Positions 115-12,613 of a DNA stretch of 30,732 nt are shown one piece after another. The translations under genes and the position numbers were made by a program. Source of the DNA: a virus. Below the pieces are notes generated by a model, which did no database searches, had not been told where the DNA came from, and worked only from the letters and a program-made list of their open reading frames with translations. How positions within the stretch are numbered: the stretch's first letter is position 1; the number at the start of each line of letters is the position of its first letter. The stretch lies in IMG/VR virus record IMGVR_UViG_3300020052_000024, positions 1-30,732 of that record. One strand, 5' to 3'.

Positions 115-663
115 ATGGCTTATTATGACAAGGTGAATACCGATATCAAATTAAAACTTTATGTTGAACTTATACTCGAAAATCATCCAAACTTTGCTGA
201 AGGGACCCCGTTCCGTGAAGCATTAATTCAAAAACCACAAGTCTTTAATATTGAACATCTTATTGAGGATATGATGGCCATCAGCTCAGGCGGCCAATAC
301 AATTTCATTGATGGAATACACGAAGACTTTGATGATGGTTCAGAATGCAAGACTGGTACACTTCACCTTAATGGTCTTTCGTCAGCAGAAATCACAAATG
401 TTAAATCTCAGAACGGTGTACTTAAGAAAGGTGCTGTTCGCTGTGTTGTACTTAATCCTCGTTTGGAAAAATTACATTTTGTCTTTATCCCTAAAAAGGC
501 ACTACTTGACTTGATGACTACTAAAAAAGGTACCATTAAGAAATCAAAATCAGCTTGGTTAAAATACACTGATAAGAAAGATTCTTTTGATCGTTGCTTT
601 GAGAAATACGGTATCACTGAGTTTGATACATTCAAAGAACTTGCTATGGAGAAAAACCGCTAA
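115..663 (+). CDS. hypothetical protein, weak PD-(D/E)XK-like signature
   Basis: This is a 182-residue protein that I do not recognise. The ATG at 115 has a strong AAGGAG upstream, and the gene is the first one after promoter P1, so early expression is likely. Around residues 71-79 there is an Asp-Asp-Gly-Ser-Glu-Cys-Lys stretch (D73/D74, E77, K79). It is followed by alternating hydrophobic strands, which is the layout of a PD-(D/E)XK nuclease active site. This is only a weak resemblance and could be chance. There is no signal peptide or membrane segment. It abuts the downstream phosphohydrolase gene through TAATG, so the two are probably co-translated. In a phage with modified cytosines, an early nuclease that attacks unmodified DNA would make sense, but that is inference. 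Confidence 0.75.
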   Translation: MAYYDKVNTDIKLKLYVELILENHPNFAEGTPFREALIQKPQVFNIEHLIEDMMAISSGGQYNFIDGIHEDFDDGSECKTGTLHLNGLSSAEITNVKSQNGVLKKGAVRCVVLNPRLEKLHFVFIPKKALLDLMTTKKGTIKKSKSAWLKYTDKKDSFDRCFEKYGITEFDTFKELAMEKNR

Positions 664-980
664 TGAAATACGACGAAGGTAAACCAAAGATCCATCTAGT
701 ACCACCCGAGGCAATCATCGAGGCTGCACGGGTTTTTGGCTTTGGTGCAGAAAAGTATGGTGAGAATAACTGGCGCAAAGACATACATAAGTTCCCTGTC
801 TCGCGACACTATTCATCCATTCAACGCCACTTGATGGCTTATATGATGGGAGAGAATGATGATCCTGAAAGCGGTCTTCCACATCTGTCTCACGCCTTGA
901 CTCAAATGATGATTCTTATCATGACGACTCAAGAAGGTGATCCCGAAACAACTGATGACCGTTTTAAGGAGAGTGAATAA
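663..980 (+). CDS. MazG-like dATP/dGTP diphosphohydrolase
   Basis: This 105-residue protein has the KYGENNWRK segment (about residues 31-39), a Tyr-Ser-Ser-x-x-Arg-His helix and a His-Leu-x-His-Ala helix. I associate this pattern with the phage dATP/dGTP diphosphohydrolase family (formerly DUF5664). That family has the all-alpha MazG/HisE fold, which hydrolyses (d)NTPs to monophosphates. Acidic and His residues in the helices would bind Mg2+. The start overlaps the previous stop (TAATG), with GGAG upstream. Its position directly before dCMP hydroxymethylase suggests a role in shaping the nucleotide pool. In phages with diaminopurine DNA, related enzymes work with PurZ, but no PurZ is present here. 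Pool cleansing is therefore the simpler reading. Substrate is not proven by sequence. Confidence 0.82.
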   Translation: MKYDEGKPKIHLVPPEAIIEAARVFGFGAEKYGENNWRKDIHKFPVSRHYSSIQRHLMAYMMGENDDPESGLPHLSHALTQMMILIMTTQEGDPETTDDRFKESE

Positions 981-1642
981 TGATCTTACCTACCGTAAAG
1001 GATATTCGTCAATTCTTTATTGATGAACTTAATGATGAAGCGTATACTATCGACAAGACAGGTCAAAAAACCATTGAAATGCTTGGCGCAAGTTTCCTTG
1101 CTACTGAACCTGCTATCTTTGGTAAACCAGTGCAAAGTTATATTGATGCTGAGTTGGATTGGTACGAATCTCAATCCACCAACATTTTTGATATACATGG
1201 TGATGATAAGGAACCACCTGCAGCATGGAAGTATGCGGCCAACCAACACGGAGAAATCAATTCAAACTATGGGCATTTGATTTTCTCCGAAAAGTATAAT
1301 CGTCAATACGATTCAGTGCTAGGCGAGTTGTCGGACAGTCCTGATGGCCGTCGTGCTACTATGATCTACAACAGACCGTCAATCTGGGCTGAATACAATG
1401 AGAACGGAAAGTCAGACTTTATCTGCACCAACGCTGTTACTTATTATATTCGCAATGATGAACTGCAGGCTGTTGTTCAAATGAGATCCAATGATGTTGT
1501 CTTTGGATACAAAAACGATTATGCATGGCAACAACACGTACTTGAAATGTTGGCCGATGACCTTGAGATAGCTCCAGGCTTTATTACATGGCAGGTTCAA
1601 AACCTTCATGTGTATGAACGCCACTTTGATCTGGTAAAATGA
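980..1642 (+). CDS. 42: dCMP hydroxymethylase (T4 gp42-like)
   Basis: This enzyme converts dCMP and methylene-tetrahydrofolate to 5-hydroxymethyl-dCMP, the precursor of hydroxymethylcytosine DNA. The 220-residue protein follows T4 gp42 closely from memory. It has an N-terminal DKTGQKTIEMLGASF block, GEINSNYG, SDFICTN with the nucleophilic Cys149, and MRSNDVVFG. It then has NDYAWQ with Asp180, and LHVYERHF near the C-terminus. Asp at 180, where thymidylate synthases have Asn, is the known signature for dCMP over dUMP and matches T4 Asp179. The protein is slightly shorter than T4 gp42 at the C-terminus. Start: the ATG overlaps the previous TAA, preceded by AAGGAG. It implies that this phage replaces some or all cytosine in its DNA. 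Confidence 0.95.
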   Translation: MILPTVKDIRQFFIDELNDEAYTIDKTGQKTIEMLGASFLATEPAIFGKPVQSYIDAELDWYESQSTNIFDIHGDDKEPPAAWKYAANQHGEINSNYGHLIFSEKYNRQYDSVLGELSDSPDGRRATMIYNRPSIWAEYNENGKSDFICTNAVTYYIRNDELQAVVQMRSNDVVFGYKNDYAWQQHVLEMLADDLEIAPGFITWQVQNLHVYERHFDLVK

Positions 1643-1643
1643 G

Positions 1644-2105
1644 ATGAGTGCTGATTGGGATAGAAGATACCTAGCACTGGCTAAAGAGATATCTAGTTGG
1701 TCAAAGGATCCGTCAAGAAAGATTGGCGCAGTCGCGGTTGGAACTAAAGGTCAAGTTTTGGCTCAAGGCTACAATGGATTCCCTCGTGGAATCGCAGACA
1801 GTCGTGATCGTTATAACGATCGCCCTGTCAAGTATAAGTATGTTGTTCATGCTGAGATGAACTGCATATATAATGCTACTTATAATGGTGTATCGCTTGA
1901 CGGTTCAATTATGTACGTATGGGGATTACCTATGTGTTCTGATTGCGCCAAAGGTGTTATACAAGTTGGAGTGAAACACGTCCTCTGGGGTACGGATATG
2001 CTTATCCCAAAAACCTGGGTGGACTCTTTGGAAGATACTACAGATATGTTTAGAGAGGCTGGTGTGAAAATTACTTGTTTACATTCGCCAGGATCTGTGG
2101 TATAA
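1644..2105 (+). CDS. cd: dCMP deaminase
   Basis: This enzyme deaminates dCMP to dUMP, which the ThyX encoded at 11167 can then methylate. The 153-residue protein has the zinc cytidine-deaminase signature: His69-Ala-Glu71 and Pro-Met-Cys98-x-x-Cys101. It also has a DPSRKIGAV segment and a GYNGFPRG loop typical of the dCMP deaminase branch. The start ATG lies 1 base after the hydroxymethylase stop and has no good ribosome site, so translational coupling is likely. Together with the hydroxymethylase it sets the fate of dCMP, either to thymidine or to hydroxymethylcytosine. The last codons overlap the -10 element of the next promoter. Confidence 0.95.
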   Translation: MSADWDRRYLALAKEISSWSKDPSRKIGAVAVGTKGQVLAQGYNGFPRGIADSRDRYNDRPVKYKYVVHAEMNCIYNATYNGVSLDGSIMYVWGLPMCSDCAKGVIQVGVKHVLWGTDMLIPKTWVDSLEDTTDMFREAGVKITCLHSPGSVV

Positions 2106-2106
2106 T
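2078..2106 (+). promoter_or_regulatory. sigma70-type promoter P2, internal to the operon
   Basis: TTTACA at 2078-2083 and TATAAT at 2101-2106 have a 17-base spacer. TGG directly precedes the -10 box, an extended -10 feature. The promoter lies inside the end of the dCMP deaminase gene; the stop codon TAA is part of the -10 region. The expected transcription start, about 2112-2114, is only a few bases before the next gene's ATG at 2116, so the transcript would be almost leaderless. It would drive the sugar-modification genes independently of P1. Confidence 0.8.
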
Positions 2107-2115
2107 AACTATGTT

Positions 2116-2586
2116 ATGGAAAATTGTACTGACGTAATATTCATTGGCATGCAGCCATCAAAAGCGCGGTTTCGTAAGAACTGCGCTATTGACCGTTTTA
2201 GTATATGGATGGAGAAACTAGGTATCAACTGTGTTACCTTTCAGAACGCAATCACTGATGTGGATCTTCCGCAAAAGGTAACATCAGCTGATTTCCAAAT
2301 GCTATATAGATGTGTACAAGGATACAACAAAGTTGTTGCCCTTGGCGCACTGTCATCGCAGATACTAAAAACGATGGGTATACCACACTTTCGTATGCCA
2401 CATCCGTCGCCTAGAAATCGTTTGCTGAACGATAAGGCATATGAAGAAATGATGTTAATTGAACTCAGGAGTTATATTGATGGTGAACCTAGTGATTCCG
2501 GCAGCTGGAGCAGCTACGAGGCTGCGTCCACTTTCGACAAATACCTCAAAGGTAATGGTTCGAGTCAACGGCAAGCCATGCCTTGA
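2116..2586 (+). CDS. uracil-DNA glycosylase superfamily-like protein
   Basis: This is a 156-residue protein. Residues 8-15 (IFIGMQPS) resemble motif I of the uracil-DNA glycosylase fold (GxxP). VVALGALSSQIL near residue 75 resembles the central strand-helix, and PHPSPRN near residue 95 resembles motif II, where family enzymes have HPS. The usual catalytic Asp or Asn of motif I is not obvious, so classical uracil excision is uncertain. The globular part seems to end near residue 120. The last 35 residues are Ser-rich and are read through the first 107 bases of the next gene in another frame. Start: no ribosome site, and the ATG is within a few bases of the predicted transcription start of P2. 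Roles could be repair or a step in base modification; it sits inside the modification cluster. Confidence 0.75.
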   Translation: MENCTDVIFIGMQPSKARFRKNCAIDRFSIWMEKLGINCVTFQNAITDVDLPQKVTSADFQMLYRCVQGYNKVVALGALSSQILKTMGIPHFRMPHPSPRNRLLNDKAYEEMMLIELRSYIDGEPSDSGSWSSYEAASTFDKYLKGNGSSQRQAMP

Positions 2587-3958
2587 CTATATAATCGAAC
2601 ACGCAAACAAGATGGCTGATATCGATGAGATCGTTGTTGTTGACGGTCAGTTTAATGATATTCGTGAGTACTGCTCTCGTCGTCATCCAAAAGTTAAAGT
2701 GGTGAATCAACCCTCTTTGGATGGACCTCGTGATGCCATATCCATCGGTATGAATGCACTTAAGGATCCTAATAAACCCGTTGTTGTTTGGTTAGGCGAT
2801 GCAATCATTCTTGATGAATCCATGAATCTTGGCGAGGACTTCTTACTATGTAAAGAGGTAAAGAACCATTCTGACTGGTGTATGTGGGACGGTAGTACGT
2901 TCTATAATAAACCTACGCAGAACGTCACTGACGGTGTGGCACTGGTTGGCCTATATTCGTTTAAGAATGGTTCACATGCTCAGATGGCCTTTTCGTCAAC
3001 TGATGAATATGATATCTCTCATGCCTTGACCTTGTACGGTAAGTTTGACAAAGTACTTACAGATAAGTGGTACGACATTGGTGATCTACCAACGTATTAC
3101 CAAACGTGTGCATCTCTTCTTGATATGAAATCGCGTGAGTTCAATCGTATGATATACGACCACGATCTAGGTACACTGACAAAGACTCCTGACTATCATA
3201 ACAAAGAATCAGTACTTACGTTAACGTGTGAGCGGTTATGGTACAATGGATTATCCTTTGAGCAAAAGTGTTTCGTACCACGAGTGTTTAACGATGGTCA
3301 GAATATCGTTATGTCATTTGAGTCAGGTACGTTGCTTTCTGATTTAATGTTGTACGAGAATCTTAGTGAATCCGCATGGGAATATATCGTTGATAAGTTG
3401 TTTCGTATTAAGCTAAACTATTTTAGCACACGCTGTTCGGATCGAAACTTCACTGATAAGTTTGCTGAGCAAGCAGACAAAATCTGGTTGGATAAGACCA
3501 ATAAAAGACTTAAGAACACTGACCTGCCACCTAAACTTCAGAGCAAGATTAGTTCAATGGCATGGCGTGTCTGCAGGAATACATATCCTATTGAGTGTAT
3601 GCACGGAGATCTTCATTTCGGCAATGTACTATACAATCAGCAAACGGATCAAATGAAACTAATTGATCCTCGTGGCCGTTATGGTAACGAAATTGGTACT
3701 GAAGGTGATAATCTATACGACTGGGCTAAACTTGCTCACGATCTATATCATGGGTACAACGCAATGGTCGCTGATGTAAAACATAACGAGTTAGTAAAGC
3801 GAATCTTCGTTCAGAAACTCCATGAATACAATCTTCCTGTTGATGATATCATTAATGGTGGTTTGGTACTACTAGCAACGTGCATCCCACTTCATTATGA
3901 TGACAGTGAGAGACAACAAAGGTTTCTTAACTACGTAAAGGAATATAATTATGACTGA
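2480..3958 (+). CDS. sugar-1-phosphate nucleotidyltransferase fused to an APH-type kinase
   Basis: This is a 492-residue bifunctional protein. Residues 1-235 are a GT-A-like nucleotidyltransferase, with IPAAGAATRLRPLS and Lys24 at the N-terminus, a WLGDA metal-binding segment, and a WYDIGDLPTYY segment typical of nucleotide-sugar pyrophosphorylases. Residues 260-492 resemble the aminoglycoside/choline kinase fold, with catalytic HGDLHFGN (His375, Asp377, Asn382) and metal-binding IDPRGR (Asp396). The likely job is to phosphorylate a free sugar or alcohol and then couple it to a nucleotide, giving an NDP-activated donor for the glycosyltransferase two genes downstream. I chose the ATG at 2480, not the upstream 2459, because AGGAG lies 8 bases before it and homology begins there. 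It overlaps the previous gene by 107 bases and the next by 8. The sugar is unknown. Confidence 0.9.
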   Translation: MVNLVIPAAGAATRLRPLSTNTSKVMVRVNGKPCLDYIIEHANKMADIDEIVVVDGQFNDIREYCSRRHPKVKVVNQPSLDGPRDAISIGMNALKDPNKPVVVWLGDAIILDESMNLGEDFLLCKEVKNHSDWCMWDGSTFYNKPTQNVTDGVALVGLYSFKNGSHAQMAFSSTDEYDISHALTLYGKFDKVLTDKWYDIGDLPTYYQTCASLLDMKSREFNRMIYDHDLGTLTKTPDYHNKESVLTLTCERLWYNGLSFEQKCFVPRVFNDGQNIVMSFESGTLLSDLMLYENLSESAWEYIVDKLFRIKLNYFSTRCSDRNFTDKFAEQADKIWLDKTNKRLKNTDLPPKLQSKISSMAWRVCRNTYPIECMHGDLHFGNVLYNQQTDQMKLIDPRGRYGNEIGTEGDNLYDWAKLAHDLYHGYNAMVADVKHNELVKRIFVQKLHEYNLPVDDIINGGLVLLATCIPLHYDDSERQQRFLNYVKEYNYD

Positions 3959-4322
3959 TACAATTGTTTTTGATCTTGATGATACGATCTGCTATCCTAA
4001 CTTAGACCAACCTGACACAAAGCAGCGGTATGGTAATGCACAGCCAAACGGTCGTGTGATATCCATCATGCAAAGGTTAAAGGCAAAGGGATACCACATC
4101 ATCATCCACAGCGCACGAAGAATGGTCACACATAATGGTGATATAGATAAAATTGAGAACGATGTTGGTCAAGTAACTAAGGATTGGCTAAAGTTCTACG
4201 GTGTACCATACGATGATCTAATCTTTGGTAAACCATACGCCTCAACGTACTATGTTGACGATAAGGCAATGAACCTAAAGCAACTATATGAATGGGTAAG
4301 CGATGAAGATAGCAATAGGTAA
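3951..4322 (+). CDS. HAD-superfamily phosphatase, capsule-biosynthesis (BcbF/EcbF) type
   Basis: This 123-residue protein has motif I FDLDDTIC (Asp8 nucleophile, Asp10), a Ser-Ala-Arg motif II, Gly-Lys-Pro motif III, and YVDDKA as motif IV. The small size and the ARRM and GKPY segments resemble the BcbF/EcbF family, found next to nucleotidyltransferases in capsule clusters. The likely role is removing phosphate from a sugar-phosphate intermediate, either for precursor synthesis or as editing. AAGGA precedes the ATG. It overlaps the kinase-nucleotidyltransferase gene by 8 bases and the glycosyltransferase gene by 20, so the three are translationally linked. Polynucleotide 3'-phosphatase activity is an alternative. 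Confidence 0.9.
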   Translation: MTDTIVFDLDDTICYPNLDQPDTKQRYGNAQPNGRVISIMQRLKAKGYHIIIHSARRMVTHNGDIDKIENDVGQVTKDWLKFYGVPYDDLIFGKPYASTYYVDDKAMNLKQLYEWVSDEDSNR

Positions 4323-5559
4323 GGTCGGAAAGTCAATTCTATTCGACTCAAACAAATGGGGTGCAATCGGCGGAGACAATGAGGCACCTATCTTTTACGA
4401 AAATCTGTTTCACAACAACCCTGACGTAGATTTCTATCTCGTTGGGGTATCTGACTTTACACGGTTGGATCGTAAGGAACAGGAACGTATCAATAAGCAC
4501 GGTAATGTTCACGATGTTTGGGAACACTTTAATCATTGGCGTAAGACATACGATGGCGACGAGCGTGGCGAGCGTATCTTTTATATGCAGGATTGGATGA
4601 AGAATCTATCACCTAAGTTTGATGCAGGCCTTTTCTTTATGGGTCCAACCGCAACATCAAACGTATGGGGTAAGGCACGTAAGGTAACCGAACCTGATAA
4701 ACTCGCTTCACCACTTATGATGCAATGTAAGTATGCAGGTCCTGTGGTTGACTTTATCAATGAAACCGGAATGCCATACGCAATCATCCTAAACGATCCA
4801 CGATTCTTCCCAGCTCAAATGCGGGATCTTTTCCATAGACCACAGGTTATCTTGAGTCAGTATACCGAAGAGATCAACCACCGTGCCTGGAAGGCCTATA
4901 CTGATATGGAGATGACTCATGTTAAAATACCTGCCGAATATAAAGCAATGGAAACAATCTTCCTCATTGGTAAGGAAAGAGGTAAAGCCATCGTTGATAC
5001 TCCATCTACTCTGGATTCATTCTTCACTGATGCGGTAGAACGTAAGCCGGGTGAGAAGGACATTAACTTTATGATCGTATGTAACGAGGGTAGACCATCA
5101 CGGTACAATGATCTCAAGAAATACATCCTCGATAACGTAGAGGAAGTGGACATCTATGGTAAGTGGGACGAGCGAACGATTGGCGAGGATCCGCGATTCA
5201 AAGGTCCAAAGAAGTTTAATGATCTGCAGGAAATGCTTCCACGAGTTAAGTATACGTTCTGCATTCCAATCAAGAAGGGTTGGGTAACCGCTAAGTTCTG
5301 GGAGATGGCCCACTATGGTATTATCCCTTTCTTACATCCAACATACGACGAACAAGACAACCTTAAGTGTCCAGAGTTTTTAAGAGTAACGGATTCTGCT
5401 GACTTGTTCAAAAAAATTCAGTTCCTTGAGGACAATCCTGAAGCATACGAAACACTAAAGGGCAATATCGAAAGCATGCTTAAGGATGAATACTACGATG
5501 GGTCGTATCTCAACGATCTTGCCATGAACACGCTGAAGGAGATTACAGCACATGAATGA
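4303..5559 (+). CDS. GT-B DNA glycosyltransferase, T4 beta-glucosyltransferase-like
   Basis: This 418-residue protein would transfer an activated sugar to hydroxymethylcytosine in DNA. Its layout parallels T4 Bgt: an MKIAI first strand, an NDPRFF segment at residue 164 followed by SQYTEE, then EGRPSR at 262-267, an IYGKWDER strand, and KFWEMAHYG with Glu334. In T4 Bgt the equivalent Arg-rich loop and a WE glutamate contact the nucleotide sugar. It is longer than T4 Bgt (about 350) with an extra N-terminal stretch. The gene overlaps the HAD gene by 20 bases and the methyltransferase-like gene by 8. Acceptor and donor are inferred from neighbours: dCMP hydroxymethylase upstream and a sugar-activating fusion adjacent. 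A glycosyltransferase acting on a host glycan is the alternative. Confidence 0.85.
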   Translation: MKIAIGKVGKSILFDSNKWGAIGGDNEAPIFYENLFHNNPDVDFYLVGVSDFTRLDRKEQERINKHGNVHDVWEHFNHWRKTYDGDERGERIFYMQDWMKNLSPKFDAGLFFMGPTATSNVWGKARKVTEPDKLASPLMMQCKYAGPVVDFINETGMPYAIILNDPRFFPAQMRDLFHRPQVILSQYTEEINHRAWKAYTDMEMTHVKIPAEYKAMETIFLIGKERGKAIVDTPSTLDSFFTDAVERKPGEKDINFMIVCNEGRPSRYNDLKKYILDNVEEVDIYGKWDERTIGEDPRFKGPKKFNDLQEMLPRVKYTFCIPIKKGWVTAKFWEMAHYGIIPFLHPTYDEQDNLKCPEFLRVTDSADLFKKIQFLEDNPEAYETLKGNIESMLKDEYYDGSYLNDLAMNTLKEITAHE

Positions 5560-6784
5560 TATTACTTATGGTTCGATCGTTCCACTTATTGGTGGCGAGA
5601 ACTTTGGAATTATGAAATCACTTGAGGGTCAATTACCAGAGTGGGTACTTTCGTACACTGACTTTGCTAAGAACGATGCTCATTTTATTAACCATCTTAA
5701 AGAGAAGGATTGGAAAGGTGAATATGTTTTCCTTAATGAAGAGGGCAACGAAGGATACAAGGCTAAAACCGTTGATGTGGTTAATACTGTTTGCCCTTGT
5801 GCTGGACTTAGTTCTCTCTCCGTTTCATCATCTGCAGATTCTGCAGTAAACGAATGGATGTATACGACTTCGGAATATGTTCTTAGTGAGATTAAGCCTA
5901 AGGTATTCTGGGGTGAGAACGCACCTCGTCTTTATACGAAGGCTGGTGAAAAGGTTGCCAATCGCCTGTATGAAATTGGTAAGCAGCATGGTTACTCGCT
6001 TAACTTGTATTACACAGAGTCCAGACTACACGGTTTGGCCCAAAAGCGACCACGTACGTTTTACTTCTTTACGAAGGGTACTGACAGCGCACCGTTGTTT
6101 AGGTATATCCGCCGTCCTCTTGAAAACATCGAGGATATTCTTAAAGCGGATATTAGTCCTGACGATCCTATGAACCGTTTGATTAACTCAGACAATCCGA
6201 TGGATAATCCTTGGGTTGCTTACTGCGTTCACAAGTCAGGATCAAAGACACTTGCTGAATATTACGAAAAGATTGAGAAGACGACCAACTGTATCGTATC
6301 ATCCGATAACATTTCAGATAACCTAAACGAGGTTGCTGATTGGATGGAACAACAGGGGTTTGACCAAAAGTTCGCTGACCGCGCTCGAGCAATGCAAGAG
6401 AAGGTCGACGGAGGTAAGGGTTATTGGGCACACGGTGTCACAATGCCAAAGGGGGAAATCCCATCATTGATTGGCGCAATGCCACACTCACTGATTAATC
6501 CATTCAAGGAGCAGTTCTTGACTCTACGTGATGCGCTTCGTATCATGAAGATGCCGGATGATTTCAATATGATTGGCGATAATCCTCAATCGCCAGGAAA
6601 CGCAAATGCTATCTGTCAGAACGTCCCAGTGACTACTGCGGCTGATATGATGGACTTTGTAGTTGAGTACTTAAAAGGTATGACTGATACGGTATCAAGT
6701 GATTATGTTAGACAGAACAATTCTAGCATGAAGCATGAGATCGTTAATGAAGATCTTGTAGAGCTTGACCAATTTTTTGTATAA
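5552..6784 (+). CDS. C5-cytosine DNA methyltransferase homologue with atypical motifs
   Basis: This 410-residue protein keeps the order of C5-methyltransferase motifs. A Gly-Gly loop sits near residue 15 (motif I), VCPCAGLS has Cys81 and Cys83 (motif IV), and GENAP lies near 122 (motif VI, usually ENV). QKRPR at 164-168 corresponds to motif VIII. A C-terminal TLRDALRIMKMPDDF stretch followed by a polar loop and NVPV corresponds to motifs IX-X. Motif IV lacks the standard PPCQ; C83 follows Pro82 and is the presumed nucleophile. AAGGAG precedes the ATG. Standard methylation would conflict with hydroxymethylcytosine in the phage genome because C5 is already occupied. The enzyme may act on residual cytosine, on host DNA, or on the modified base. 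It is the last gene before promoter P3 and its operon probably ends here. Confidence 0.88.
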   Translation: MNDITYGSIVPLIGGENFGIMKSLEGQLPEWVLSYTDFAKNDAHFINHLKEKDWKGEYVFLNEEGNEGYKAKTVDVVNTVCPCAGLSSLSVSSSADSAVNEWMYTTSEYVLSEIKPKVFWGENAPRLYTKAGEKVANRLYEIGKQHGYSLNLYYTESRLHGLAQKRPRTFYFFTKGTDSAPLFRYIRRPLENIEDILKADISPDDPMNRLINSDNPMDNPWVAYCVHKSGSKTLAEYYEKIEKTTNCIVSSDNISDNLNEVADWMEQQGFDQKFADRARAMQEKVDGGKGYWAHGVTMPKGEIPSLIGAMPHSLINPFKEQFLTLRDALRIMKMPDDFNMIGDNPQSPGNANAICQNVPVTTAADMMDFVVEYLKGMTDTVSSDYVRQNNSSMKHEIVNEDLVELDQFFV

Positions 6785-6868: not shown

Positions 6869-7930
6869 ATGTCTATAATGGATAAACTTAAAAAGAACTC
6901 AAAGATCAAGGAGACCTCGGTTCTCTCTGACTCAAAGTTCTTTTCTGAAAAAGATCAAACACCAACCGAGGTTCCGATGGTGAACGTTGCCCTGTCAGGT
7001 AATCCTGATGGTGGCCTTGCATCTGGTCTGACTGTCCTCGCTGGTCCATCAAAACATTTTAAGACTTCGTTCGCATTGCTTATGGCTGCAGCGTATCTTA
7101 AAAAGTATCCTGATGCAGTAATGCTGTTTTATGATTCTGAGTTTGGCTCACCGCAGGCATACTTTGAAACATTCGGTATTGATACGTCACGGGTACTACA
7201 CACGCCAATCACTGATGTTGAGAAACTGAAGTTTGATGTGGTTGGTCAACTTGAACAACTATCACGAGGCGATCGTGTGATCGTCGTTATTGATTCGGTT
7301 GGTAACCTTGCATCTAAGAAAGAACTAGAGGATGCAATCAACGAAAAGTCAGTCGCTGATATGTCTCGAGCAAAAGCACTAAAAGGTTTGTTCCGTATGG
7401 TTACACCATACCTTGCTATGAAGAACATTCCAATGCTTGCGGTCAACCATACTTATCAAGAGATTGGTTTATTTCCTAAGGCTATCGTTTCAGGTGGTAC
7501 GGGTATTTACTATTCAGCTGATAACATTTGGATTCTTGGCCGTCGTCAGAACAAGACAGGTACCGAGGTAACAGGATATGACTTTGTGATTAACGTGGAG
7601 AAATCACGATATGTTAAAGAAAAGTCAAAGATTCCTATTTCGGTTTCTTGGGACGGTGGCATCGAGCGGTATAGCGGTCTTATGGATGTTGCTGTTGCTG
7701 GCGGTTATGTTGTTAAGCCTTCTAATGGTTGGTATGCACATGTTGATCGATCTAATGGAACGTTTGAAGGAAAAAAATACCGAATGGCTGAATCCATGAC
7801 TGCAGACTTTTGGGATCCTATCTTTGAGAAAACTGACTTCAAAGAATTCCTAATTAAGTCTTATACGATTGGCCATAAATCAATGTTTGATAGTATTGCA
7901 CTGGAGATGGACGATGCAGCATCTGATTGA
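6869..7930 (+). CDS. uvsX: UvsX, RecA-like recombinase
   Basis: This is a strand-exchange ATPase for recombination-dependent replication and repair. The 353-residue protein has a phage-type Walker A (GPSKHFKTS, residues 59-67) very like T4 UvsX. The YDSEFG segment near residue 90 holds the catalytic Glu equivalent, and VIVVIDSVG is Walker B. An AVNHTYQEIG loop and a GGTGIYYSADNIW stretch correspond to the DNA-binding loops. Length fits UvsX (391 in T4, shorter in many relatives). AGGAG lies before the ATG. It opens the uvsX-40-41 order known from T4 and its stop lies inside the next gene. Confidence 0.96.
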   Translation: MSIMDKLKKNSKIKETSVLSDSKFFSEKDQTPTEVPMVNVALSGNPDGGLASGLTVLAGPSKHFKTSFALLMAAAYLKKYPDAVMLFYDSEFGSPQAYFETFGIDTSRVLHTPITDVEKLKFDVVGQLEQLSRGDRVIVVIDSVGNLASKKELEDAINEKSVADMSRAKALKGLFRMVTPYLAMKNIPMLAVNHTYQEIGLFPKAIVSGGTGIYYSADNIWILGRRQNKTGTEVTGYDFVINVEKSRYVKEKSKIPISVSWDGGIERYSGLMDVAVAGGYVVKPSNGWYAHVDRSNGTFEGKKYRMAESMTADFWDPIFEKTDFKEFLIKSYTIGHKSMFDSIALEMDDAASD

Positions 7931-10919: not shown

Positions 10920-11176
10920 GGTACACGTTTAAGAATCGCTACGGTGACACTATGTCTATCGTAGAAATAGATAAATCAACCCTTTTATGGAGAGGATCCC
11001 ATAACCACGAAAGGATCTCGTGTAACGAGGCTGGGACGATCACAATGGTCGACCCGTCAGGAGGGCCATATATTTGTGAAGGGCAAGACATCGGTTTGGA
11101 CTATCCCCCTTGGAAAGGCCGAATCGTTGACCACTTTCAGCATCATGAAGAAGGATACTTAATTTTATGCAGGTAA
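10895..11176 (+). CDS. hypothetical protein
   Basis: This 93-residue soluble protein has no motif that I can assign. AAGGA lies before the ATG. It contains a hydrophilic beta-rich sequence with a VDPSGGPYICEGQD segment and a His-rich C-terminal stretch (DHFQHHEE). It overlaps its upstream neighbour by 25 bases and thyX by 10, which supports its being translated. Confidence 0.75.
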   Translation: MVDTKEEVRYTFKNRYGDTMSIVEIDKSTLLWRGSHNHERISCNEAGTITMVDPSGGPYICEGQDIGLDYPPWKGRIVDHFQHHEEGYLILCR

Positions 11177-11865
11177 GACTAATCGGTTATACTCAACCCG
11201 TAGCGGATGCGATCATTGGAATAGATGATGTTCAGGATTTGATCGCGTACTGCGCCAGAGTCTCTAACCCAGATAATCAGCTGAATCAGAAAACAGCGAA
11301 AAAGCTGTTGAACTATTTGGCCAAACATAAGCATTGGTCTCCCTTTGAGATGGCGTCAGCAACGATGGAGATCGAAACGACTCGTGACATCGCACGTCAG
11401 ATCTTGCGACACCGTTCCTTTTCGTTTCAAGAGTTTAGTCAGCGATACGCGGATCCTACCCAGGATCTTAGTTTTGTAAAACGAGAAGCAAGATTACAGG
11501 ATCCTAAGAACCGACAGAACTCGGTAGACATCGAAAGCGATCCTTCCCTTGTGGATAACGTAAAGAATCAGGAACTGATCGCGGAGTGGGGTCGCCGACA
11601 AAGCGGTATCATTGAACTGGCAAAGAAACACTATCGTTGGGCTGTAGAGAATAACATCGCAAAGGAACAGGCTCGTGCGGTACTACCTGAAGGCCTAACA
11701 GTTTCTAGGATGTATATGAATGGAACCATACGGTCTTGGATCCACTTCATTGAACTGCGATCAGGAAACGGAACACAAAAGGAGCACATGGAGGTCGCTA
11801 AGGCTTGCGCAAAAGCAATCGTAGAAATCTTCCCATTGGCCAATGAATACATTTCTTCTAAATAA
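11167..11865 (+). CDS. thyX: ThyX, flavin-dependent thymidylate synthase
   Basis: This enzyme makes dTMP from dUMP using methylene-tetrahydrofolate, FAD and NADPH. The 232-residue protein carries the ThyX signature RHRSFSFQEFSQRY at 81-94. It also has an N-terminal CARVSNP segment and a C-terminal RSWIHFIELRS helix with the dUMP-binding Arg region. AAGGA lies upstream of the ATG. With dCMP deaminase it completes a phage route to thymidylate, which in T4 is done by the unrelated ThyA-type Td enzyme. It sits far from the other nucleotide genes and overlaps its neighbours on both sides. Confidence 0.96.
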   Translation: MQVRLIGYTQPVADAIIGIDDVQDLIAYCARVSNPDNQLNQKTAKKLLNYLAKHKHWSPFEMASATMEIETTRDIARQILRHRSFSFQEFSQRYADPTQDLSFVKREARLQDPKNRQNSVDIESDPSLVDNVKNQELIAEWGRRQSGIIELAKKHYRWAVENNIAKEQARAVLPEGLTVSRMYMNGTIRSWIHFIELRSGNGTQKEHMEVAKACAKAIVEIFPLANEYISSK

Positions 11866-12613
11866 TACTAAGAATTACCACAAAGGCTGTGAAGTCGTTG
11901 CCGAGTATCTTATAAATAAATACGGCGTATCTGATTGGAGATACACTCGAGATCAACTTGAGGATATCGACTTCAGTAAGTATGACCGCGTCGTCCTAAA
12001 CGGCGAAGGTACGCTTCATCACAATACTCGTTCAGCTCGAAGACAACTAACAGCCCTGAGGTTAGCCCAGTATGCAGGATGCGAAACTCATCTTGTCAAT
12101 ACTGTGTGGCAAGAGATGCCTAACACTTGGGATGACGTACTCGCCAACTGTAAATCCGTTCAAGTAAGAGAGGTACTATCACAATATGAAATGTCGTCTA
12201 AACATGGAAGACTACCTACAGTTGCTCCTGACTGTAGCTACCTTCATAACGATGTGGCTGTCCGTGAGTTCGCTCACGTAGCAGTCTACGAAGGCCAATA
12301 TATGAAGGCCAATCCATACGGGGTTCAAGGCGGCTATCCTCGTATCGATATATTTAGTCAAACGTGGGAAGAGATCGTTAACCGTTTACGTAACTGCGAT
12401 TTACTTATCACTGGTAGACATCATGAGATGTATGCCGCCTGTGTAGCAGAGTGTAGATTTCTTGTGACTCCTGGTAACACCTGGAAGAACCAAGGATTGT
12501 TGAAATCAGCTGGTGTGGATATACCGTTCGACGTAGATGGAGCCCTTTCGGGCAAATACGACGATCAGTATAACCGTTTGTGGGATTATTTAAGGTCCTT
12601 TAGAACTAAATAA
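11843..12613 (+). CDS. polysaccharide pyruvyl transferase-family protein
   Basis: This 256-residue protein resembles the CsaB/WcaK family. An N-terminal His-x-Gly-Cys segment sits at residues 13-16, and LNGEGTLHH runs from residue 52 to 60. A late TGRHHEMYAACVAECRFL block follows at about 191-208, and a GNTWKNQGL segment is near the end. Family members add pyruvate ketals to sugars or act as glycosyltransferase-like enzymes with a GT-B-like fold. The start ATG at 11843 overlaps thyX by 23 bases; no strong ribosome site is visible. It may decorate the DNA-linked sugar made by the 2480-5559 genes, or change a host surface glycan. The gene ends just before a strong terminator. Confidence 0.87.
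   Translation: MNTFLLNNTKNYHKGCEVVAEYLINKYGVSDWRYTRDQLEDIDFSKYDRVVLNGEGTLHHNTRSARRQLTALRLAQYAGCETHLVNTVWQEMPNTWDDVLANCKSVQVREVLSQYEMSSKHGRLPTVAPDCSYLHNDVAVREFAHVAVYEGQYMKANPYGVQGGYPRIDIFSQTWEEIVNRLRNCDLLITGRHHEMYAACVAECRFLVTPGNTWKNQGLLKSAGVDIPFDVDGALSGKYDDQYNRLWDYLRSFRTK

Follow-up and report, generated by a model that had tools for sequence, protein, structure and literature searches.

Phage T4 uses the uridine diphosphate (UDP)-glucose of its host. Its genes follow the order 43 - imm.1 - imm - 42 - bgt - segA - uvsX - 40 - 41, and Salmonella phage S16 carries two glycosyltransferases (GTs) in the arrangement 42-GT-bGT-uvsX. RB69-type phages are reported to make 5-hydroxy-deoxycytidine monophosphate (5-hydroxy-dCMP) and to build on 5-hydroxycytosine rather than 5-hydroxymethylcytosine (hmC), according to the excerpted text of PMC13390438. 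The RB69 protein ORF53_52c is a published candidate for UDP-arabinose (PMC6024577, in excerpt), and inactivation of its homologue TH1_060 in Shewanella phage Thanatos is described, in the excerpt of PMC12838424, as nearly abolishing propagation. Here, we analyzed a locus at the left of a 30.7-kb fragment of a virus genome (IMG/VR record IMGVR_UViG_3300020052_000024, positions 1 to 30,732; the whole stretch is referred to as the window), which lies in the same interval as those of T4 and S16. The virus, T4-like and bacteria-infecting, is represented by metagenome sequence only. With a probability of roughly 0.8, homology and structure models suggest a DNA-decoration locus that would place a sugar on hmC by a Bgt-like GT and would include a clamp-tethered homologue of C5-methyltransferases (MT). 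The features of the locus and its surroundings are as follows.

663..980, + strand: dATP/dGTP diphosphohydrolase-like deoxynucleoside triphosphate (dNTP) pyrophosphohydrolase (PF18909, 8e-29)
980..1642, + strand: T4-type dCMP hydroxymethylase of the thymidylate-synthase/dCMP-hydroxymethylase family (PF00303, 4.3e-17)
1644..2105, + strand: dCMP deaminase (PF00383, 2.4e-17; phrog_174, 1e-41)
2116..2586, + strand: protein resembling the uracil-DNA glycosylase (UDG) superfamily (motifs GMQPS, HPSPRNR)
2480..3958, + strand: fusion of a sugar nucleotidyltransferase and an APH-type kinase (PF00483, 8.7e-14; phrog_4098, 1.3e-28)
3951..4322, + strand: BcbF-type HAD sugar-phosphate phosphatase (TIGR01689, 3.2e-20; phrog_1238, 7.8e-19)
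4303..5559, + strand: T4-Bgt-like GT-B glycosyltransferase, presumably acting on DNA (fold and profile match to T4 BGT)
5011..5025, + strand: LDSFF, candidate sliding-clamp peptide in a low-confidence loop of the GT
5552..6784, + strand: MT homologue (PF00145, 3.5e-13, above cut-off), catalytic half intact, cofactor half changed
6764..6778, + strand: C-terminal LDQFF peptide of the MT homologue
6869..7930, + strand: UvsX, right flank of the locus (phrog_97, 3.2e-91)
11167..11865, + strand: ThyX, a separate thymidylate synthase (PF02511, 3.9e-43)

An earlier sequence-only reading of this DNA had proposed that the locus hypermodifies cytosine and itself encodes the enzymes that activate the sugar, a proposal that our data supported. 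The five genes it named (hydroxymethylase, fusion, HAD phosphatase, GT and MT) were present as open reading frames (ORFs) in the places and families given, as judged by Pfam, NCBIfam and PHROG matches. Their order held as well, although the deaminase and UDG-like genes between the hydroxymethylase and the fusion had been missed. The genes had further been described as all overlapping; this applied to the fusion/HAD (8 nucleotides), HAD/GT (20 nucleotides) and GT/MT (8 nucleotides) pairs and also to the UDG-like/fusion pair, but not to the hydroxymethylase and deaminase. A 39.4-kb contig (G001), whose proteins were 100% identical to those of the window in 12 of 12 comparisons, adds the DNA polymerase gene upstream, giving the order polymerase - hydroxymethylase - deaminase - UDG-like - fusion - HAD - GT - MT - uvsX - gp41.

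To place the locus among its relatives, 160 loci from relative scans and a six-frame map were joined into 59 contig clusters via shared exact 100-mers. The input comprised the new loci from both relative scans, which retained the best 80 of at least 535 relatives and the best 80 of 289, respectively, and 6 of the 17 loci of an earlier scan; nine of the remaining 11 recur as contigs in the later scans, and L017 and L018 were omitted. Residue and motif tables of the MT are based on 58 sequences, and the hydroxymethylase pattern was checked in 59 survey proteins. The association of the hydroxymethylase with the MT is not a matter of chance, as 46 contig clusters contain both.

In the proposed pathway, the homologies, the fold, the order of the genes and the counts of the peptide are computed, and the substrates, sugar and clamp binding are predicted. 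The hydroxymethylase would produce 5-hydroxymethyl-dCMP while pool enzymes clear dCTP and dCMP, and hmC would be incorporated into the phage DNA. Starting from a sugar phosphate of the host, the HAD protein and the fusion would produce a nucleoside diphosphate (NDP)-sugar; the sugar would most probably be a pentose, as it is in RB69. A clamp peptide would keep the Bgt-like GT at the replisome, where this enzyme would transfer the sugar onto hmC, and the MT homologue, likewise tethered, would perform Cys-C6 chemistry on the same DNA.

Base and sugar

The enzyme encoded at 980-1642 showed 51.8-53.2% identity to T4-type gp42 proteins (40 matches listed of 1409), and its alignment with the enzymes of T4 (gp42), S16 and KR1 revealed an Asp at the position of E. 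coli ThyA N177. Asp in place of Asn there is reported to direct specificity to dCMP rather than deoxyuridine monophosphate (PMC8670742, in excerpt). The enzyme also retains an RSxDxxxG stretch, which is absent from all four RB69-type rows (RSQNCAVV or RSENTAIV instead). We take the residues of this stretch to have a folate role. The T4-type pattern RS.D...G..?.D fitted 59 of 59 survey proteins. In a tree, the window enzyme fell outside the RB69/Ac42/VR5/PspYZU05 clade (support 100/98) and was joined with the T4-type set at a moderate 82/90, with long-branch warnings for the S-TIM61 and Enterococcus 9183 rows. From these sequence features, we infer that the base in this phage is hmC and not hydroxycytosine. 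A role of the enzyme as the thymidylate synthase of the phage was ruled out by the Asp at position 177 and by ThyX at 11167; since a separate ThyX is encoded, the enzyme need not make deoxythymidine monophosphate.

Two neighbouring genes may also concern the base. The dNTP pyrophosphohydrolase at 663..980 is possibly a pool cleaner. The UDG-like protein of the window had no Pfam match at E 1, and a PDB profile search with the alignment of its family (18 distinct proteins listed, one identical to that of the window) returned a single weak match at E 0.36. Two of four relatives scanned exceeded the PF03167 cut-off, with the HPS of motif B present, and PHPS..NR is invariant in the alignment. The motifs resemble those of SMUG1, and the protein could excise hydroxymethyluracil arising from hmC deamination.

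For the sugar, the sequence-only reading had drawn an analogy to RB69-type phages while proposing a different enzyme set. The analogy held for sugar activation, and the reading had missed a difference in the base, where the RB69 type is reported to build on 5-hydroxycytosine (PMC13390438, in excerpt) and the enzyme here is of the T4 type. A new enzyme set was rejected: phrog_4098, the family matched by the window fusion, is covered in one half by RB69 ORF053 and in the other by ORF052, and phrog_1238 includes both RB69 ORF051 and the HAD protein of the window. Direct BLASTP comparison of the window sugar enzymes with RB69 ORF053, ORF052 and ORF051 gave E values of 7e-8, 3e-7 and 2e-7. By sequence, sugar activation here follows the RB69 type, and its combination with a T4-type base is unusual. 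The APH/choline-kinase-like match of the kinase half is weak, and the TIGR01689 match of the HAD protein reaches 72 bits against a curated cut-off of 162. The listed ORF of the fusion opens at TTG 2459, and ATG 2480 is its likely start. The fusion matched 218 phage records, of which 166 are Escherichia phages.

It is quite plausible, although at somewhat less than even odds, that this phage, like RB69, uses D-arabinose, made from host arabinose-5-phosphate and yielding arabinosyl-hmC, in which case the sugar would not be new. The fusion and HAD protein belong to the same families as those of RB69, where ORF053 and ORF052 adjoin the arabinose-5-phosphate isomerase and ORF051. In addition, a sibling locus (L056) has genes for a ribulose/allulose-phosphate epimerase (PF00834), an SIS isomerase (PF01380; best NCBIfam match 6-phospho-3-hexuloisomerase, below cut-off) and a KdsC-like phosphatase (likewise below cut-off) before its own fusion and Bgt-like GT. 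On the other hand, an SIS-type isomerase was not found in the eight records examined, seven of which are possible fragments; the fusion, with 23-27% identity to the named phages listed, is too distant to fix the substrate; and the GT is unlike RB69 ORF003c by BLASTP (no match at E 0.1; E 7.8 in direct comparison). A pentose is our default assumption, at least as likely as a novel sugar on hmC, which is also possible.

As a separate observation, RB69 ORF050, annotated as a 'peptidase' beside the arabinose genes (L002:26492-27661), resembles UbiU weakly (E 9e-4, well short of the cut-off). It may bear on hydroxycytosine formation, which we offer as an idea only.

The glycosyltransferase and the C5-methyltransferase homologue

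The AlphaFold2 model of the GT had a mean confidence score (pLDDT) of 90.5, and its best fold match among 998 aligned chains was T4 BGT (Z 21.4, 3.9 A, 314 residues), followed by BshA (Z 19.1), the GT of phage HY126 (16.6) and T4 AGT (16.4). T4 BGT was also the first PDB profile match (E 0.011), in agreement with the earlier description of this protein as T4-Bgt-like. In the alignment with T4 BGT, R267 and E334 correspond to the retained R195 and E272, and R269 is replaced by K331; R195, R269 and E272 are presumably the UDP-binding residues of T4 BGT. The GTs found at this place in sibling loci include members of PF11440 (AGT) and PF20691 (TAGT), which are DNA-glycosylating families.

Both the GT and the MT homologue carry an L[DE].FF peptide. 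We counted this peptide in ORFs of at least 60 amino acids, with overlaps removed, in pieces of up to 20 kb, so that a gene spanning a border could escape; the counts covered 156.0 of 158.2 kb of Pseudoalteromonas phage vB_Psh_XG4 (XG4) and 100.0 of 100.8 kb of contig G004. In G001, it was found in 3 of 63 proteins, namely at the polymerase C-terminus (TLEDFFA), in the GT (STLDSFF) and in the MT (ELDQFFV), with 0.27 expected from shuffles. The same three proteins carried it in G002 (3/47; 0.23 expected from shuffles). The GT, the MT and one other protein had it in G004 (3/174; 0.62 expected), the GT and MT in G005 (2/30), and the GT in G006 (1/27) and L023 (1/8); the window had it in 2 of 46 proteins (0.17 expected). 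Across the survey, the peptide was present in 26 of the 34 distinct GTs and in 7 of 11 Agt-type GTs. Among the 58 MTs, 17 carried it and 40 fitted a looser C-terminal pattern. Every other survey family counted was free of the strict pattern: hydroxymethylase (0/51), deaminase (0/42), UDG-like protein (0/11), fusion (0/23), HAD (0/22), HAD-kinase (0/17), nucleotidyltransferase (0/12), epimerase (0/19), UvsX (0/38), gp41 (0/43), ThyX (0/16) and MazG-like protein (0/31). One HAD protein of 22 had the looser pattern. The peptide of the GT overlaps the only segment with a pLDDT below 50, as a docking peptide might. Because it resembles the C-terminus of the phage polymerase, the peptide suggests that the GT and MT are tethered to the clamp and act on DNA. 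T4 alpha-GT binds and co-purifies with the gp45 clamp, although this contact did not set the share of alpha-glucosylation, according to the excerpted text of PMC13216743. The shared peptide may help to separate DNA-directed from glycan-directed GTs in phage genomes.

The MT homologue, which the earlier reading had named without further comment, is the most unusual part of the locus. Its model (pLDDT 92.6) has a C5-methyltransferase fold across residues 1-378, with fold matches to HaeIII (Z 25.9), HhaI (25.4) and CmoX (8yf3; 23.5), and the catalytic residues C83, E122 (the Glu of ENV), Q164, R166 and R168 (QxRxR) were found in 58 of 58 sequences. The cofactor half is changed. Motif I reads PL[IV]GG in all 58, with FxGxG in none within the first 70 residues and the looser [FYWL].G.G in two; V, I or Q stands at the Phe18 position, Leu at the Gly20 position and, in 58 of 58, Gln at the Asn304 position (motif X; Gln356 in the window). 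Profile alignment to M.HhaI placed motif I poorly, and the F18-V10 and G20-L12 matches rest on the GG anchor, whereas the N304-Q356 match rests on HMMER alignments. The best stretch of the PF00145 match begins at profile position 57, and the best stretches of the MT profile matches begin at residue 42 or beyond, some lying in the C-terminal part only. Seven non-canonical residues (P11, L12, G14, G15, F38, N41 and D42) are invariant, and for this reason the cofactor half is not decaying. In CmoX of phage S-B43, the Asn304 position is Arg350, which binds the carboxyl of carboxy-S-adenosylmethionine, and an SPPC motif is present (PMC12783734, in excerpt); the window MT has VCPC for SPPC and Gln356 for Arg, and thus lacks the CmoX signature.

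We tentatively propose that the MT homologue is directed to hmC and works without ordinary S-adenosylmethionine (SAM), such that a Cys-C6 adduct would form and the hydroxymethyl group would be removed, replaced or derivatised at selected sites by an enzyme tethered to the clamp beside the GT. M.HhaI-type enzymes perform in-vitro chemistry with hmC and aldehydes. A literature search for cofactor-free C5-methyltransferase chemistry returned nothing relevant. If the proposal is true, the DNA would have two layers, a bulk sugar-hmC and a second, site-specific cytosine form. Natural C5 chemistry aimed at hmC gains in this homologue a concrete candidate that can be tested.

Two other roles of this protein have to be weighed. 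That it is an ordinary SAM-dependent cytosine methyltransferase of anti-restriction function, unrelated to hmC chemistry, is unlikely by itself but hardly less probable than the proposal above: the M.HaeIII/M.HhaI fold extends along nearly the whole chain, the catalytic Cys, the Glu and the two Arg occur in each of the 58 sequences, and the PF00145 cut-off was passed. An Asp at the probable motif III position in 44 of 58 and a Glu at the probable ribose-binding (motif II) position in 11 of 58 also argue against lost SAM binding. The motif I, Asn304 and profile results described above speak against an ordinary methyltransferase, and complete replacement of cytosine by hmC would leave no C5-H for methylation; plain methylation is awkward because C5 is occupied in hmC, unless some cytosine is left unreplaced or the enzyme acts on host DNA. 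It is still less probable that the MT performs no catalysis and serves the GT as an adaptor for base flipping or clamp docking. An adaptor would agree with its altered cofactor half, its company with GTs of several families and the clamp-like peptide it shares with them, but the invariant catalytic residues would be needless in an idle scaffold, and the S-TIM-type loci have the MT with no match to the GT queries within the loci fetched.

Several observations weigh against the DNA-decoration reading of the whole locus. The first PDB profile match of the GT stands at E 0.011 (1bgt) only, no Pfam GT family matched it above the curated cut-off (best E 0.005 and 0.03), Pfam BGT did not match at E 1, and GT-B enzymes that do not act on DNA reach Z 19 with the model. 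T4 beta-GT does not bind the gp45 clamp, as stated in the excerpt of PMC13216743. In XG4, L[DE].FF was found in 0 of 226 proteins, its GT and MT being without the peptide; two of the 59 clusters (L169, L174) have the GT without the MT; and the isomerase was not found, as described above. That the genes act on host-surface or virion glycans and not on DNA, as the family names of BcbF-type HADs and NDP-sugar enzymes, typical of capsule loci, might suggest, is nonetheless very improbable, since the locus sits between gene 42 and uvsX, the slot ahead of the MT holds Agt-, Bgt- and TAGT-type GTs, and the polymerase-like peptide is on the GTs and absent from the sugar enzymes. A host-glycan role of the GT was therefore rejected on fold, locus and peptide; the concern that its model might fall among host-glycan enzymes was not borne out, BGT being the best match with other GT-B enzymes at Z 19. 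The XG4 polymerase ends in SLDDLFM.

Exchange of modules among relatives

The slot between the hydroxymethylase and MT varies across the 59 clusters, while the outer two genes recur. The slot may hold the fusion, HAD and Bgt-like GT, in either order; a HAD-kinase with an RfaE/TagD-like nucleotidyltransferase, with or without a GalE-like epimerase; an Agt-type GT with or without an epimerase (L023: PF11440, 6.7e-31; PDB T4 AGT, 7.7e-35); a TAGT-type GT (L065: PF20691, 3.7e-21); a set with a NAD-dependent sugar epimerase (L016); or an inositol-phosphate-synthase-like protein with a 5-hydroxymethyldeoxyuridine (5-hmdU)-kinase helical-domain protein (L066). The MT was present in 57 of 59 clusters and lay less than 400 nucleotides ahead of UvsX in 46 of 55. 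When clusters with the MT and at least 5 kb upstream were considered, the hydroxymethylase was found in all 23 of the MT-seeded and all 24 of the GT-seeded clusters, two sets that overlap; the corresponding values were 25/26 and 26/27 at a 3-kb threshold and 26/27 and 26/28 at 2 kb. The 3-kb clusters without it, L072 and L194, are loci that start at a contig end. In the distant S-TIM-type cyanophages (L005, L197-L210), which are close relatives of one another, the MT occurs with a ThyA homologue bearing the dCMP-type Asp in 10 of the 10 loci showing ThyA, out of 14.

A reading that we regard as possible, though tentative, is that the locus serves as an exchangeable DNA-coat cassette whose organisation resembles that of bacterial O-antigen loci, with the hmC-directed MT as a part of it. 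The comparison shows the interval between 42 and uvsX as an exchange site for DNA-decorating modules among related phages, and many unseen cytosine modifications are predicted from it. A literature search for a description of such a modular locus found none; prior description in Iyer et al. 2013 or Mahler et al. 2025 is possible.

Further observations were made in individual loci. In L066 (1227-5630) and L068, the slot encodes an inositol-phosphate-synthase-like protein (PF01658 above cut-off; TIGR03450 at 1.4e-57, below cut-off) together with the 5-hmdU-DNA-kinase helical-domain protein, a FkbM-like protein (identified by eye) and a protein ending in NNTLEEFF, and an inositol-derived cytosine modification is possible. 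The TAGT-type GTs of L065 (8117-8938), L069 and L082 have C-terminal LEEFF, LEDFF or IEDFF (Pfam on L065 only, the rest by eye). Enterococcus phage 9183 (L004) has a thymidylate-synthase-like gene with Asp at 177, a HAD, a fusion and a Bgt-like GT, from which cytosine glycosylation is predicted for a phage that infects a Gram-positive bacterium. A protein of S-TIM5 carries the description DNA alpha-GT. The genes for gp41 (L013, L014, L015, L016) and UvsX (L019) are split by long insertions, probably inteins or introns. In the window, a polysaccharide pyruvyl-transferase-like gene at 11843-12613 (PF04230, 1.5e-5, at cut-off) overlaps ThyX; its survey matches were only in loci with 94-100% identical neighbours, and its product might decorate the DNA sugar.

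Comparison with known systems

The window shares with T4 and S16 the interval and gene order, a T4-type hydroxymethylase and a GT whose fold is nearest to T4 BGT, and differs from them in that sugar activation is phage-encoded and the MT homologue closes the locus. With the arabinosylation cluster of RB69 and other Mosigvirus phages and with Thanatos TH1_060, it has the nucleotidyltransferase-kinase in common, the BcbF-type HAD of RB69 likewise being of the same family; RB69 differs in its hydroxy-dCMP synthase, in a GT dissimilar by BLASTP and in the isomerase that was not found here. XG4, which is on record as an isolated phage, has the hydroxymethylase, HAD, fusion, GT and MT homologue in one run, but at 27-41% identity, in another order, with a second GT-like gene, and without L[DE].FF in its GT and MT. 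The MT resembles CmoX of S-B43 as a phage C5-methyltransferase fold with a changed cofactor side (Z 23.5) and departs from it in having VCPC and Gln356 in place of SPPC and Arg350 (PMC12783734, in excerpt); it agrees with M.HhaI and M.HaeIII in fold and in the catalytic Cys, Glu and Arg, and not in motif I or at the Asn304 position. Taken together, the locus is ordinary in kind, as an instance of phage cytosine glycosylation, and new in combination, being swappable and accompanied by a recurrent MT enzyme.

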